Below, piece by piece: positions 5,364 through 27,071 of a stretch of 33,733 bases of DNA. Position numbers and translations under genes: made by a program. How positions within the stretch are numbered: the stretch's first letter is position 1; each line of letters begins with the position of its first letter. The notes under the pieces were generated by a model. The model saw only the letters and a list, made by a program, of their open reading frames with translations, was not told the DNA's origin and made no database searches. This stretch comes from Nitrosopumilus sp. D6 (GTDB lineage Archaea > Thermoproteota > Nitrososphaeria > Nitrososphaerales > Nitrosopumilaceae). The stretch lies in NCBI GenBank assembly GCA_003724325.1, contig RHFD01000030.1, forward strand, positions 1-33,733, in the 5' to 3' direction.

Positions 5364-7070
5364 CTACATCATGCCGGGCATTCCACCCATTCCAGGTGGC
5401 ATGCCTCCCATACCGCCCATGCCTCCCATTCCAGGTGGCATTCCGCCCTCCTCGCCTCCGCCGGGCGGGCCGCCTGCGGATTTTTGTGTTGCAATCACAT
5501 CATCAATTCTCAGTATCATGCACGCGGCTTCTGTGGATGCAGATACTATCTGTAGTTTTACTGCAAGCGGCTCGATGATGTCGCCGGACTTCATGTTGGA
5601 GATCTTGCCTTTCATCACGTCAATGCCGGTCCATTTTTCGCCCTTTTGCTGCTTTGAGCGCAGCAGTGTGAGTGTGTCAATGGGATCCATTCCGGCATTC
5701 TCTGCAAGCGTGAGTGGAATCGTCTCTAGGGCATCTGCAAACTTTTCGACGGCCAGCTGTTCCCTGCCCTCTAGGGACTTTGCCCAGCCCCTCAGTTTTG
5801 TGGCTGCAAACGTCTCTGGCGCCCCTCCTCCTGCGACGATCTCTGGCTTTAGCATTACATCTCTTACCACCATGAGCGCGTCGTGTACAGAGCGCTCTAC
5901 CTCGTCTACAACCCTCTGCGAGCCGCCACGAAGTAATAGTGTGACGGATTTTGGATGCTTGCAGCCTTCTACAAACACCCACTTGTCCTCTTCAATCTTT
6001 CTCTCCTCCACCATCTCTGCGCTGCCGAGATCTTTCTCAAACAAGTCATCTAGATTTGTAACTATCCTGGCTCCGGTCGCCTTTGCAAGCTTTGTAAGAT
6101 CGCTCTCCTTTATTCTCCGCACCGCAATGATGCCTGCCTTTGCAAGATAGTGCTGGGCCATATCATCAATGCCCTTTTGGCACAAAACCACGGTTGCGCC
6201 AGAGCCGATCACCTTGTCTACCATTGTCTTTAGCATGTTGTTCTCTTCATCAAGGAACGACTTTAGCTGCTGCGGGTTTGAAATGTTAATCTTTGCATCA
6301 GTTTCTGTCTTGCTGATCTCTAGCGCCGTGTTGATGAGTGCAATTTTTGCGTTACTTGCGTGTCGGGGCATGCCGCCGTGCACGATCTCCTTGTCTAGTA
6401 CAATACCCTGAATTATCATCGAGTCTTTTACCGAGCCGCCAGCCTTTTTCTCCACCTTTATGTCATCAATGTCAACATCATGAACATCGCCGATCTTTTC
6501 AGATACGGATATTACGGATTTTACAACAATGTCTGCAAGCTGTGCAGAGTCCTTTCTGACAAGCTTTGTCTGCATGGACGTCTTTGCCACCTTTGTCAGT
6601 ATGACCTTGTCATTTGCTACCACCTTGTCTGCAATACTCTCTAGGAATTGTTTTGCCTTTTTCCCGGCCTTTCTATACCCGTCTACAATGATGGTCGGAT
6701 GAACATCCTGATCAATTAGGAATTCGGCGTGCTCTAGCAGTGCCCCTGCAAGTACTACTGCAGATGTCGTGCCGTCGCCCACCTCGTTGTCGGTGGTCTT
6801 TGATATCTCTACTAGCATCTTTGCGGCCGGGTGCTGTACGTCGATCTCCTTTAGTATCGTGGCCCCATCGTTTGTAATAGTAACATCCCCAAGCGAGTCA
6901 ACTAGCATCTTGTCCATGCCACGCGGGCCTAGACTGGTGTGGATTATCTCTGCAATGATTTTTGCAGCCCCAATGTTGTTTTTTTGTGCGTCACGGCCCT
7001 TGGTCTCCGTGCCACCCTCTTTTAGTAGCACGACTGGCATATTACCCTTGGAGGTTGCCTGCATTCCCAT
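5364..7070 (-). CDS. Thermosome (group II chaperonin) subunit
   Basis: An ATP-driven folding chamber subunit of about 568 residues. Equatorial domain motifs include [27 protein letters not shown] and [15 protein letters not shown] near residue 100; the apical region contains [14 protein letters not shown]; and the second equatorial part has IVAGGGAPE near 415. The C-terminus is a GGM-type repeat tail ([19 protein letters not shown]) that projects into the cavity. An ATG exists at 7082, but the TATA box at 7092-7100 predicts transcription starting near 7071, so ATG 7070 or ATG 7064 is the better leaderless start. The gene is divergent from glyA over a compact intergenic region with back-to-back promoters. 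Only one subunit gene is seen here; others may exist elsewhere. Confidence 0.96.
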
Positions 7071-22308: not shown

Positions 22309-23655
22309 CTACCAGACATCATCCACCTCGTCAAGCGGCCTGTACTCCTTTTCCACATAGCGCCTAGTCAGTCTCAGTCTAGATATGTCCCTATCAAAGA
22401 AGAGATCTATCACCCAGTCAAGCAAAATCCTAAACTTTTTCTCAAACGTGGGAATCTTTGAGAGATATACATTCCTCCAGATGATCCAAGCCCAGAACCC
22501 TGACACATTCATTCCTAGAATCGTGGCAATGCCTGTCCTTTTCCCGATTATTGCCATCTGTCCCCTTGTCTTGTATGCAAATGCCTCTTTCTTTTTACCC
22601 CTGACTAATGCTGTCAGGTTTCTGATTGCCGCTTTTGCCTGCACGGTTGCAACCTGGGCAGTCGGTGGATATGGTTTTTGTGATCCCGGCTCAATACACA
22701 TTGCACAGTCCCCTACTGCAAAGACGCCGGGAAAGTCGGCGACTTCCAGATATTCATTTACTACCATCTTTCCCTTTTGGGTCTTGAATACGGATCTCTT
22801 GATGGTGTTGACCGGAGTTACACCGGCAGTCCATACCAGCGTCCTTGCGCTTATGCCCCCCGCCCGGGAGTCAACAGGGCTCCTTGGATCATCACCAAGC
22901 TGCTTTGTCATTACCTGGCTTCCATCAAAGCCGGTAACTGCAGTCTTTAATCTAATGTCTATGCCCCTAGATGTCATCTTTTTTCTTGCAAACTCGGCAA
23001 GCCCGGGATCAAATCCCGGAAGGATCATCGGCAGAGCCTCTAGCACCACAACACTGAGATCCCTCCTGTGTATGGCAGGATAGTGGATGCGCGCATCTAA
23101 GAGCAGGTCCATGAGCTCTCCTGCCGTCTCTATTCCTGCAAAGCCGCCGCCTGCCACGACAAAACTCAAGAGGCTCTTTTTTATGGCAGAATCATTCTCG
23201 TTTTCTGCCTGCTCAAACATGTCAATTACGCGGTTTCTTAACATTACTGCATCATTGAGCGTCTTCATGGTGTAGGCGTTTTGCTCTACATCTGCCATTC
23301 CGAAAAAATTCGTCTCACTGCCGAGCGCAACTATTAAAAAATCATAAGAGACTGAGATGCTCTCCCTATCACCTGTACCCCACAGCGTTACAAGCTTGCC
23401 GTGCGGATCAATGTTTTTGATCCGGCCCTCGTAAAACTTTGTCTTTTTGCAGATGGTCCGGATGGGCAGGATTATGTGGCGGGTCTCGATCATGCCAGAG
23501 GCGACCTGTGGCAGCATTGGCGTAAACAGCATAAAGTTATCCTCACTTATCATGACTAGTTCTGTCTCCATATCACCTCCAAACTCGGACTCGAGCCGTC
23601 TGGCGCACTCGATCCCGGCAAAGCCTCCGCCCAACACTACAATTCTCCTAGTCAA
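22309..23655 (-). CDS. Type II NADH dehydrogenase-like FAD oxidoreductase
   Basis: A two-dinucleotide-binding oxidoreductase of about 448 residues. An N-terminal FAD site (RRIVVLGGGFAGIECARRLE) is followed by NFMLFTPMLPQVASGMIE, the FLIVALGSETN turn, an NADH site (SFVVAGGGFAGIETAGELMD), LVWTAGVTPVN and the FAD-contacting FPGVFAVGDCAM. The C-terminus is amphipathic (WAWIIWRNVYLSKIPTFEKKFRILLDWVID), typical for membrane attachment of NDH-2. It would oxidise NAD(P)H and reduce quinone without pumping protons. GTG 23670 is an alternative start, but a TATA-like AATATAT (23681-23687) is about 27 nt from TTG 23655. It lies 34 bp after the ACT-like gene on the same strand. Confidence 0.9.
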   Translation of the reverse strand: MTRRIVVLGGGFAGIECARRLESEFGGDMETELVMISEDNFMLFTPMLPQVASGMIETRHIILPIRTICKKTKFYEGRIKNIDPHGKLVTLWGTGDRESISVSYDFLIVALGSETNFFGMADVEQNAYTMKTLNDAVMLRNRVIDMFEQAENENDSAIKKSLLSFVVAGGGFAGIETAGELMDLLLDARIHYPAIHRRDLSVVVLEALPMILPGFDPGLAEFARKKMTSRGIDIRLKTAVTGFDGSQVMTKQLGDDPRSPVDSRAGGISARTLVWTAGVTPVNTIKRSVFKTQKGKMVVNEYLEVADFPGVFAVGDCAMCIEPGSQKPYPPTAQVATVQAKAAIRNLTALVRGKKKEAFAYKTRGQMAIIGKRTGIATILGMNVSGFWAWIIWRNVYLSKIPTFEKKFRILLDWVIDLFFDRDISRLRLTRRYVEKEYRPLDEVDDVW

Positions 23656-23688
23656 ATACGCCCGCTCCACACACCCGATGAATATATG

Positions 23689-24327
23689 TCAAGTTCTTAC
23701 AATGTCCGAGTGCAAAATGTCATACGCCCGGGATGAATCCCTTTCATCAAGTATGATGGTAATGCTGTCCTGGCCAAAAAATGCATTTACCAACTCTATC
23801 CCGTTTGCATGAAGCACCTCTGCCACGTACGAGACCACATCTGACTGGTTCCGCGCCGGTATTGAGATTCTGATCTTTGCGAGACCAGTACTAAACATCT
23901 CACTGCTCACGTTTCTAAAGATCCGCCTTACATCCTCCATGTCTTCTACCAAAAACCTAAACGAGTCAGACAGCCTGAAAAACTCGTAATCATCTGTTAC
24001 CTTTGAGAACTCGTCTAGTACTGTGGCCGGATTTACTGCGCCAGAGTCCTTTACAGAGACTTTCACATCCATAATCCCATCAGTGAGTACTAGGTGCGCA
24101 TTTTTGAGCACCGACTCGTCTCGGATCTCCTCTTTTTCAAACGAGTCTGCATACCTCTTGATTGCCACCACTACGGTGTTGAGATTCACCTGACTGCCTT
24201 GTATCCGTTCTATCTCTGGATGAATCTTTACTGCAAGGGCCGTATAGTTTATCAGATCCATCTTCATACAGTCATATATTGAGCGGTTTCTGGTAATCAA
24301 CTCCCTTACAATCTCTGGAACAGACAT
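23689..24327 (-). CDS. ACT-domain-like regulatory protein
   Basis: A protein of about 212 residues (217 from ATG 24342). The N-terminal half is helical (MSVPEIVRELITRNRSIYDCMKMDLINYTALAVKIHPEIE) with HTH-like character, and the middle and C-terminal parts look like ACT-type beta-alpha-beta units (LAKIRISIPARNQSDVVSYVAEVLHANGIELVNAFFGQDSITIILDERDSSRAYDIL). This layout fits an archaeal ligand-sensing regulator. Two TATA-like boxes give leaderless spacing to 24327 and to 24342 respectively. Its promoter contains the CCTATTATA inverted repeat shared with the divergent hsp20 promoter, so it may regulate itself and hsp20-cdc48; this is inference. Confidence 0.7.
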   Translation of the reverse strand: MSVPEIVRELITRNRSIYDCMKMDLINYTALAVKIHPEIERIQGSQVNLNTVVVAIKRYADSFEKEEIRDESVLKNAHLVLTDGIMDVKVSVKDSGAVNPATVLDEFSKVTDDYEFFRLSDSFRFLVEDMEDVRRIFRNVSSEMFSTGLAKIRISIPARNQSDVVSYVAEVLHANGIELVNAFFGQDSITIILDERDSSRAYDILHSDIVRT

Positions 24328-24346
24328 GCCCTGCCCTCTCATGAAC

Positions 24347-24374
24347 CCTATTATATGATGTCAATTATAATAGG
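24347..24374. promoter_or_regulatory. CCTATTATA inverted repeat at the ACT-like gene promoter
   Basis: CCTATTATA (24347-24355) and TATAATAGG (24366-24374) are perfect 9-bp arms with a 10-bp spacer, about one helical turn. The arms themselves contain TATA-like boxes, so a protein bound here would block TBP. Confidence 0.75.
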
Positions 24375-24408
24375 TTTGTGTAATAGGACTGAAAAAACCC
24401 TAGAAAAG

Positions 24409-24418
24409 TTAATATAAT
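24409..24418 (+). promoter_or_regulatory. TATA box for hsp20
   Basis: TTAATATAAT is centred about 28 nt before GTG 24442. It overlaps the left end of the 20-bp palindrome at 24416-24435. Confidence 0.65.
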
Positions 24419-24435
24419 GTAATACCTATTACATT
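24416..24435. promoter_or_regulatory. 20-bp palindromic operator candidate at the hsp20 promoter
   Basis: AATGTAATACCTATTACATT has perfect 8-bp arms around ACCT. It lies between the TATA box and the predicted start of transcription, a position typical of an archaeal repressor site. It contains CCTATTA, which recurs at 24347-24374, 24380-24386 and 24436-24442. Confidence 0.75.
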
Positions 24436-24441
24436 TAATAG

Positions 24442-24903
24442 GTGAATATGACAATGTTCGACAGTGAATTCAACCGTCTCTTCAGGAGGATGTCTGGTAT
24501 GACTGACCTCCTAGAAGAGTTTGATAGGAATGCCCAGTCTGATCCGTGCTGCTATAGCTGTGTCATAACGGGGCCGGACAGAACGCCTGCTGTACAAGAG
24601 CACGGATCAGAGGGTTCTGCCTCTGGTACAAGAGAACCTGTTGTAGATACAATTGTTGGCAAAAAAGAGGTAAAGCTCGTAGCCGAGATGCCCGGGGTCG
24701 AAAAGACTGACATCAAGATTATAGTCGACAACGGAACTGTGGATCTGTCTGCAGAACACGACGAGAAAAAGTACCACGCCAGAGTGCCCATCGAGGGCAA
24801 GATCGATGAGGATCACGTCAGGGCCACGTACAAGAACGGAATCCTGCAGATAGTCTTCAAGCTGGAAGAAAAACCCGCAGGCAAAAAGGTGGAGGTTGAA
24901 TAA
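24442..24903 (+). CDS. hsp20: Small heat-shock protein, Hsp20/alpha-crystallin family
   Basis: A 153-residue ATP-independent holdase. The first 65 residues are variable and include an unusual cysteine cluster (DPCCYSC) in a hydrophilic stretch. The alpha-crystallin domain spans about 70-150, with VKLVAEMPGVEKTDIKIIVDNGTVDLSAEH and the conserved ATYKNGILQIVF (family A.YKNGVL). No C-terminal IXI motif is obvious after KKVEVE. Starts at GTG 24442, ATG 24448 or ATG 24454 are possible. It is followed after 29 bp by cdc48 and preceded by palindromic operators. Confidence 0.92.
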   Translation: MNMTMFDSEFNRLFRRMSGMTDLLEEFDRNAQSDPCCYSCVITGPDRTPAVQEHGSEGSASGTREPVVDTIVGKKEVKLVAEMPGVEKTDIKIIVDNGTVDLSAEHDEKKYHARVPIEGKIDEDHVRATYKNGILQIVFKLEEKPAGKKVEVE

Positions 24904-24932: not shown

Positions 24933-27071
24933 ATGAACGAGATAATTTTAAAGATTGAAGAGATTCCGCAGCAGCATGTAGGCTGCAGCAGGGCGATAGT
25001 GGATCCCAAGATAATAGAGGAGAGGGGCTGGAGCACGGGTCAGATACTAGAGCTAACCTGTAACAAAAAGACCCACGTAAAGCTCTGGCCCGGGGCGCCA
25101 GAGGAGTACGGCTCTTGCGTGATCAAGATAGACGGTCTTACAAGGCAGAACCTGGGCGCCGGCATTGGAGACAAGGTGTCTGTAAAATCAGTAGAGGCCG
25201 CAGAGGCAGAGCAGATAATATTATCTCCGACTGAAAAGATAGCTGTAGAAGGCCTGCAGGAATACATGACTGCCTATTATCTCAACCATGTATTTACCAC
25301 CGGCGACTCTGTATCACTTAACGCACAGATGGGCGGCCGCATCCGGTGCGTGGTAACTAGCACAAAGCCCTCAAAACCAGTCATTGTAAGTGAGAGGACT
25401 GTATTCAAACTTGGCTCGATGACAAAGGCGCTCGATGCGTCGTCTCCGAGGATAACATATGACGAGCTTGGAGGCCTTGGAGGGGTGGTTCAAAAGATAC
25501 GCGAGATGGTAGAGCTGCCGATGAGGCACCCGGAACTGTTTGAAAAGATCGGCGTCGAGGCTCCAAAAGGGGTGCTATTACACGGGCCGCCGGGTACGGG
25601 CAAGACGCTGCTTGCAAAGGCAGTCGCAGGCGAGACTAACGCCCACTTTATCTCTGTGAGCGGTCCGGAGATAATGGGGAAACACTACGGGGAGAGCGAG
25701 GAGCGGATCCGGGAGATCTTTGCCCAGGCAGAGGAGAACGCACCTAGCATCATATTTATCGATGAGATCGACTCGATCGCGCCAAAACGAGACGAGGTGA
25801 CAGGTGAGGTAGAAAAGAGAATCGTCTCACAGCTGCTTACCCTGATGGATGGAATAAAGTCAAGAGGAAAGGTAACAGTCATTGCAGCCACCAACAGGCC
25901 CGACTCGATTGATCCCGCGCTCAGGCGCCCAGGACGGCTTGACAGGGAGATAGAGATAGGCATACCAGACGGAGAGGGACGTCTTGAGATTCTTGCAATA
26001 CACACAAGGGGAATGCCTCTAGATGAAAAGACGGATCTAAAGCAGATATCAAAGACTACGCATGGGTTTGTCGGGGCGGATCTTGAGGTGCTTGCAAAAG
26101 AGGCTGCAATGAGGGCGCTCCGCAGAATCCTTCCCGAGGTGGATCTTGACGAGGAAAAGATCCCGTCACAGATACTCCAAAAGATCCGCATTACTGCAGA
26201 AGATTTTGCAGATGCGCTCCGGGAGGTAAGACCTAGCGCGCTCCGGGAGGTACAGGTACAGGTTCCAGATGTAAGCTGGGATGATGTAGGCGGCCTTGAC
26301 GGATTAAAAGAAGAACTCCGCGAGGCAGTCGAGTGGCCCATCATACACAAGGAGGCATTCGAGTATGCAGGTGTGGAGACTCCAAAGGGGATACTATTAC
26401 ACGGTCCGCCGGGTACGGGCAAGACACTGATCGCAAAGGCGCTTGCAAGCATGACAGAGTCCAACTTTATCAGCATAAAGGGCCCCGAGCTGCTCTCAAA
26501 GTGGGTCGGCGAGTCAGAAAAGGGAGTCCGGGAGATCTTTAGAAAGGCGCGCCAAGCTGCGCCGTGCATAATATTTCTAGATGAGATTGATGCCCTAGTT
26601 CCGCGCAGGGGCTCTGCATCTGACTCACATGTCACAGAGAACGTCGTCTCACAGATACTTACAGAGATTGACGGCCTTGAGGAGCTCCACGGCGTAGTTA
26701 TAGTGGGGGCCACCAACCGTCTAGACATAGTAGACGAGGCGCTGCTAAGACCCGGCAGGTTTGACAGAATCATAGAGGTGCCAAATCCCAATGCAAAAAG
26801 CCGGAGGCGCATACTAGAGATTCACACGAGCAAAAAGCCGCTTGCAGGCGGGGTAGATCTTGGAAAACTAGTAGATATTACAGAGGGCTTTAGTGGGGCA
26901 GAGCTGGCCGCTGTCACAAACAGGGCGGCAATTGCTGCCCTCAAAAGACACGTCGAGTCCGGCTCTGGTGGCATGTCTGATATACGCATCACGGGGCAGG
27001 ATCTGGCAGATGCAGCAGACAAGGTGAGGCCGGCAAGAAAAGAGGCTCCACTCACACACTCCATCAAATAA
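24933..27071 (+). CDS. cdc48: CDC48/VCP-like AAA+ ATPase
   Basis: A 712-residue unfoldase with an N-terminal substrate/cofactor domain (about 1-170: double-psi beta-barrel [20 protein letters not shown]) and two AAA+ modules. D1: Walker [17 protein letters not shown] near 218, Walker [15 protein letters not shown] near 275, arginine-finger region [14 protein letters not shown]2: Walker [17 protein letters not shown] near 490, Walker [16 protein letters not shown] near 548, [13 protein letters not shown]. It would extract and unfold proteins for the proteasome. It lacks a clear C-terminal HbYX motif (ends LTHSIK). A GGTGA ribosome binding site lies 4 nt before ATG 24933, fitting an internal operon gene after hsp20. 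Confidence 0.96.

Follow-up and report, generated by a model that had tools for sequence, protein, structure and literature searches.

The window analysed here, a 33,733-nucleotide stretch of DNA from Nitrosopumilus sp. D6, comes from one contig of a 1.17-Mb genome in 106 contigs, and its nearest named relatives are contigs of Nitrosopumilus sp. H13. Three genes meet at the locus of interest. On the minus strand (23689-24342) lies a candidate regulator gene, whose 217-aa product combines an N-terminal four-helix domain with two tandem ACT domains. Divergent from it, on the plus strand, are hsp20 (24448-24903; alpha-crystallin small heat-shock protein, PF00011, E = 2.3e-8) and cdc48 (24933-27071; an AAA+ ATPase with CDC48_N, CDC48_2 and two AAA domains), the presumed second gene of the operon. 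The preliminary description had placed an ACT-like gene beside hsp20-cdc48, and Pfam agrees, with HSP20, CDC48 and a sub-threshold ACT_7 match. The hsp20 gene starts at the ATG at 24448, conserved in the alignment of relatives (ATATGACA). For the ACT gene, 24342 is a likelier start than 24327, with the ATG kept in relatives and a TATA element 26-27 bp upstream. Eighty named relatives were found with the ACT-like protein, and their intergenic regions were aligned with that of the window (81 sequences). The ACT-like gene is divergent from hsp20 in all 80, and cdc48 follows hsp20 in 75. An NDH-2-type pyridine nucleotide-disulphide oxidoreductase gene (22309-23670, minus strand) lies directly behind the ACT gene and occupies the same place in most relatives inspected. 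The H13 assembly contains two diverged ACT/hsp20 loci (L097 and L098), whose proteins are 92% and 88% identical to that of the window; this assembly is possibly a strain mixture.

Between the two divergent genes, conservation peaks in two places, one at each promoter, and the spacer between them is only 64% conserved. At the hsp20 promoter, the conserved element TTTATATA-ATGTMATANNTATTACAT (24409-24434) consists of the TATA box with an 18-bp palindrome immediately downstream. The TATA box (24409-24416, plus strand) reads TTAATATA in the window and TTTATATA in relatives, with a mean conservation of 97% across the 81 sequences. The palindrome (24417-24434, plus strand) reads ATGTAATACCTATTACAT in the window against the consensus ATGTMATANNTATTACAT; it is matched with at most one mismatch in 73 of the 80 relatives and with at most two in 78. 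A 20-bp palindrome had been described at 24416-24435, and it is exact. It had also been placed between the TATA box and the predicted transcription start. Archaeal transcription starts about 25-27 bp from the TATA centre, so that the hsp20 start is expected near 24439 and the palindrome, centred at about -13, does fall between the two; a bacterial-type promoter scan was uninformative for this archaeal DNA. The 24417-24434 palindrome is almost certainly an operator. That it acts instead as an RNA hairpin (thermometer) within the hsp20 leader, as a perfect dyad close to the start codon of a heat-shock gene might, is very improbable: in nearly all relatives it sets in at the final bases of the TATA box, so that transcription should start downstream of it, and its distance to the ATG is constant (28-29 nt).

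The locus had originally attracted attention for a dense array of the heptamer CCTATTA/TAATAGG. Five exact copies lie within 96 bp, at 24347, 24368, 24381 (not 24380, as first given), 24425 and 24436, and the 9-bp-arm inverted repeat noted at 24347-24374 has exact arms, which grow to 12 nt (24344-24377) if one mismatch is allowed. Dinucleotide shuffling of the 105-bp region never yielded the heptamer five times (0 of 20,000 shuffles); any heptamer chosen post hoc reached that count in 40 of 5,000 (0.8%), and a 9-bp-arm palindrome occurred in 4 of 3,000. Genome-wide, 115 copies of the heptamer occur in 1.17 Mb. Against this density stands the alignment of 81 sequences, in which copies 1 (24347-24353, plus strand), 3 (24381-24387, minus strand), 4 and 5 (24436-24442, minus strand, at the expected start-site or leader position) are matched in only 1, 2, 5 and 1 sequences, respectively. 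The 'CC' of copy 4 coincides with the palindrome's centre, a variable NN, and copy 2, kept in 49 sequences, lies inside the TATA region of the ACT gene. Across the whole region, relatives mostly carry 0-2 copies. The heptamer therefore does not hold as the operator unit, the array as a functional unit was ruled out by conservation in the 81 sequences, and a five-site operator is most improbable. Since four of its copies are so poorly conserved, the array is, by this comparison, mostly a private coincidence on top of a real operator. Aligning the hsp20 upstream regions of relatives, as had been suggested, thus divides the proposed dyads: the palindrome at 24417-24434 is conserved, whereas the one at 24347-24374 is not kept as a dyad.

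The second conserved block, TGTCARTTATAATAGGATTATGTAA (24359-24383, no strand assigned), covers the promoter of the ACT gene, and most of its columns are 95-100% conserved. Within it, the ACT TATA element is flanked by two TGTMA half-sites, which have the same orientation and are spaced 20 bp apart; TGTCA-N15-TGTAA is present in 77 of the 80 relatives. The TATA region itself (24365-24374, minus strand; CCTATTATAA) fits a leaderless transcript from near 24342, and TATAATAG stands 25-27 bp from the ACT start codon in most relatives. Because half-sites of the operator thus stand on the ACT side as well, the block is a candidate autoregulatory site through which the ACT protein probably controls its own gene.

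An AF2 model of the ACT-like protein (pLDDT 81.8), together with Foldseek, revealed the beta-alpha-beta-beta-alpha-beta ACT fold, and residues about 80-216 match the regulatory domains of aspartokinases (E = 3.5e-7). The protein shares the tandem ACT fold with these enzymes over that stretch but lacks a kinase domain, an N-terminal helical domain being fused to it instead. This domain (aa 8-66; 24145-24321, minus strand) is predicted to bind DNA. It is the most conserved part of the family, holding nearly all of the invariant columns, and comprises four predicted helices (pLDDT 85.8) with an HTH-like sequence pattern. Profile and fold searches of the domain against the PDB returned no significant match, none having an E value below 3, so that its DNA binding is a property that we infer. 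Two Pfam matches of the protein, to ACT_7 and DUF7523 (PF24367), fall under the curated cut-offs. The likeness to DUF7523, a domain without an assigned function, is weak and confined to the N-terminal 68 residues: the window protein scores 25.8 bits against a cut-off of 27, and 15 of 18 members of the ACT-protein family match at E values up to 0.01. No DUF7523 match over the Pfam threshold was found in the window's own genome; among the control genomes, the domain occurs in Haloferax volcanii. A remote ACT-like paralogue with about 24% identity (for example L095, 2548-3159, in G046) is present in many genomes of the order; in G046 it adjoins genes that resemble pyruvate/2-oxoacid dehydrogenase subunits.

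The strict pattern TATATA-N1-6-GTMATRNNYATTAC was searched for in 300 Nitrososphaeria genomes, with the same pattern reversed as control. It occurs in 156 genomes, and the reversed control in 3. Within the window's own family most matches are simply the orthologous promoter, which proves conservation only; the informative matches are those in other lineages. A sample of about 64 distinct sites was inspected (four of them, L213, L218, L240 and L241, end at a contig edge after an hsp20-like start and were judged from that start), and with a single exception they lie ahead of an hsp20, thermosome or cdc48 gene; the exception, a site without a chaperone gene (L180), adjoins an ACT gene. In other families, additional hsp20 genes carry a site upstream, in some genomes several of them and usually without an adjacent ACT gene. 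One site (L254) precedes cdc48 alone. The divergent partner of the ACT gene varies with the lineage, being hsp20-cdc48, cdc48 or the thermosome. The last arrangement, with the palindrome in between, was seen in three genomes (G039, G278 and G089, the last from another order), and in G207 the site lies upstream of a thermosome gene about 2 kb from the ACT gene. In genus g8 of family f8, cdc48 is often the divergent neighbour of the ACT gene, and the palindromes separating the two are imperfect. A full site, or one with a single mismatch, precedes the second, long hsp20 of three relatives (G002, G004 and G007). Besides an intact locus on another contig, G018 has an additional ACT gene that lacks its N-terminal part and adjoins cdc48 fragments (L089, 2779-3666, on contig C2), which reflects either a duplication or an assembly chimera.

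The suggestion that the operator serves chaperone genes beyond this locus is therefore borne out in relatives, but in the window's own genome neither the thermosome genes nor the second (short) hsp20 has a site upstream; the thermosome gene within the window (5484-6956, minus strand) likewise has no operator-like site upstream. In this genome, then, it looks like a switch for one locus and not like a heat-shock operator used genome-wide. The genomes of 0.8 Mb also keep the palindrome, imperfect in one of them, which indicates that some true sites, the window's own (TTAATATA) among them, escape the strict TATATA pattern. Their ACT genes had been suspected of degenerating; this was rejected, as the in-frame stops precede the true start and the gene is intact.

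Outside the window's family, the ACT gene is present in 31 of 32 genomes that bear the operator and in 20 of 97 that do not (Fisher p 3e-15, uncorrected for relatedness), in a 2x2 table tallied by hand from two genome listings; the 32nd operator-bearing genome has an ACT gene fragment at a contig end. Contrasts within single genera (g43 and g14) point the same way: operator and ACT gene are both present in G165 and G207, and both absent from their respective congeners, G155 and G178 for the former and G049 for the latter. Three genomes (G043, G045 and G211) retain the ACT gene although the strict operator pattern has no match in them. In two of these, which belong to another family, a short Lrp/AsnC-like ORF is the divergent neighbour of an ACT-like gene (L083 in G045, L372 in G211), and two imperfect copies of the palindrome separate them. 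The divergent ACT-like protein, earlier put forward as the regulator, thus stands as the best candidate for it. The palindrome could also be the chaperone operator of another, unlinked transcription factor, the ACT gene being a neighbour for some other reason. Sites before hsp20 and thermosome genes that have no ACT gene alongside would fit such a factor, as would the lack of a recognized DNA-binding fold in the N-terminal domain. We consider it unlikely, however, given the co-occurrence and the same-genus contrasts, the fact that the ACT gene accompanies three different chaperone arrangements, and the operator half-sites that, in nearly all relatives, lie on both sides of the TATA box of the ACT gene itself.

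All results here come from comparative sequence analysis, which establishes the operator, how well it is conserved, which genes it stands before and how it co-occurs with the ACT gene; from these we infer DNA binding by the ACT protein, the direction of control (repression or activation), the signal and the response to heat. The most probable reading, which we hold with fair confidence, is that the ACT protein is an autoregulated repressor of a proteostasis regulon, acting on the 24417-24434 operator of the hsp20-cdc48 promoter. A dimeric protein on the palindrome would block the recruitment of RNA polymerase; most likely it is the product of the divergent gene, in which a helical (HTH-like) domain is joined to two ACT domains of the aspartokinase type. 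With the operator between TATA box and start, a bound protein should impede the entry of polymerase, the mechanism described for Phr (PMC9133787); this makes repression likelier than activation. The protein would also control its own gene through the TGTMA half-sites at its TATA box. The regulon would be small: in Nitrosopumilaceae it would consist of hsp20-cdc48, in other families of cdc48 and several hsp20 genes, and in yet others of the thermosome. Derepression would follow proteotoxic stress or a change in an ACT ligand. The link to heat comes from the identity of the target genes. The idea of a thaumarchaeal heat-shock operator thus survives as a conserved operator upstream of hsp20, without the heptamer as its unit and without sites at the thermosome genes of this genome.

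More distant members of the ACT-protein family occur in Crenarchaeota (L364-L370 and L375). Their neighbours include argG (argininosuccinate synthase), carA (carbamoyl-phosphate synthase small chain), an ACT-bearing amino-acid kinase and ABC-transporter or cobalt-transport-like genes, the ABC-transporter genes being judged from protein starts only. These homologues form a candidate family of amino-acid regulators. The palindrome was absent upstream of the three crenarchaeal homologues checked; with their position at amino-acid genes, this means that the ancestral signal may be amino acids rather than heat. In the phylogenetic tree, most crenarchaeal members group together (95/88), albeit with several long branches and an open backbone. 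Neighbours and tree together suggest an amino-acid regulator that was recruited to chaperones in Nitrososphaeria. In its fullest form, which we propose tentatively and rate a little short of an even chance, one branch of an amino-acid-sensing family (helical DNA-binding domain plus tandem ACT domains, with crenarchaeal kin at arginine and aspartate-family genes) would have been recruited in Nitrososphaeria, placing chaperones and Cdc48 under an amino-acid-type sensor via one palindromic operator.

A related possibility overlaps with the autoregulated repressor and differs from it in the signal: an amino-acid-responsive activator or repressor on the palindrome would tie chaperone output to the amino-acid or growth state of the cell, not to heat. 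The tandem aspartokinase-type ACT domains and the neighbours of the crenarchaeal homologues favour such a signal, whereas the Nitrososphaeria sites inspected precede chaperone and cdc48 genes, not amino-acid genes. It is the strongest of the alternatives and a real possibility, if clearly the less likely one.

Two archaeal heat-shock regulators, Phr and HSR1, both euryarchaeal, are the only ones named in a 2022 review (PMC9133787). Their regulons contain a small heat-shock protein and an AAA+ ATPase and do not include the thermosome; the same source reports no conserved heat-shock binding motif in Sulfolobus and leaves crenarchaeal regulation open (PMC10653856). In the open-access literature, no report of the present operator or regulator was found (subscription papers and RegPrecise lay outside the search), and no dedicated heat-shock regulator was previously on record for this archaeal branch. 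For ammonia-oxidizing archaea, which are abundant in ocean and soil, the present work thus names a specific operator of a chaperone regulon together with a candidate for its regulator, and the proposal is directly testable by experiment.

The system resembles Phr of Pyrococcus furiosus, an autoregulated repressor of hsp20 and the Cdc48-type ATPase VAT1, whose palindromic site in the start region blocks RNA polymerase (PMC9133787, PMC10746257); Phr sites precede HSP20 and VAT1 in Pyrococcus (PMC10746257). It also resembles HSR1 of Archaeoglobus fulgidus, an autoregulator tied to an hsp20 gene, with a regulon that includes a small heat-shock protein and an AAA+ ATPase (PMC9133787, PMC10653856). 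Two features of such repressors recur here: an operator at the hsp20 core promoter, in about 80 relatives, and a regulon of hsp20 and a Cdc48/AAA+ ATPase, seen in the frequent hsp20-cdc48 pairing and in separate sites at cdc48 and hsp20. The operators, as the preliminary description recognized, differ in sequence: that of Phr consists of TTTA at -10, TGGTAA at the start and AAAA at +10, and that of HSR1 is CTAAC-N5-GTTAG, with hsp20 downstream in the same operon rather than divergent. Neither regulator has ACT domains in its descriptions, the ACT protein being built differently, and the N-terminal domain of the latter gave no significant profile or fold match to a solved chain. The regulon differs too, as it includes the thermosome in some lineages, unlike those of Phr and HSR1 (PMC10653856). 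The ACT system is not classed with Phr or HSR1 but probably works like them, and it seems to have arrived independently, by convergence, at hsp20 and Cdc48, the targets of Phr.
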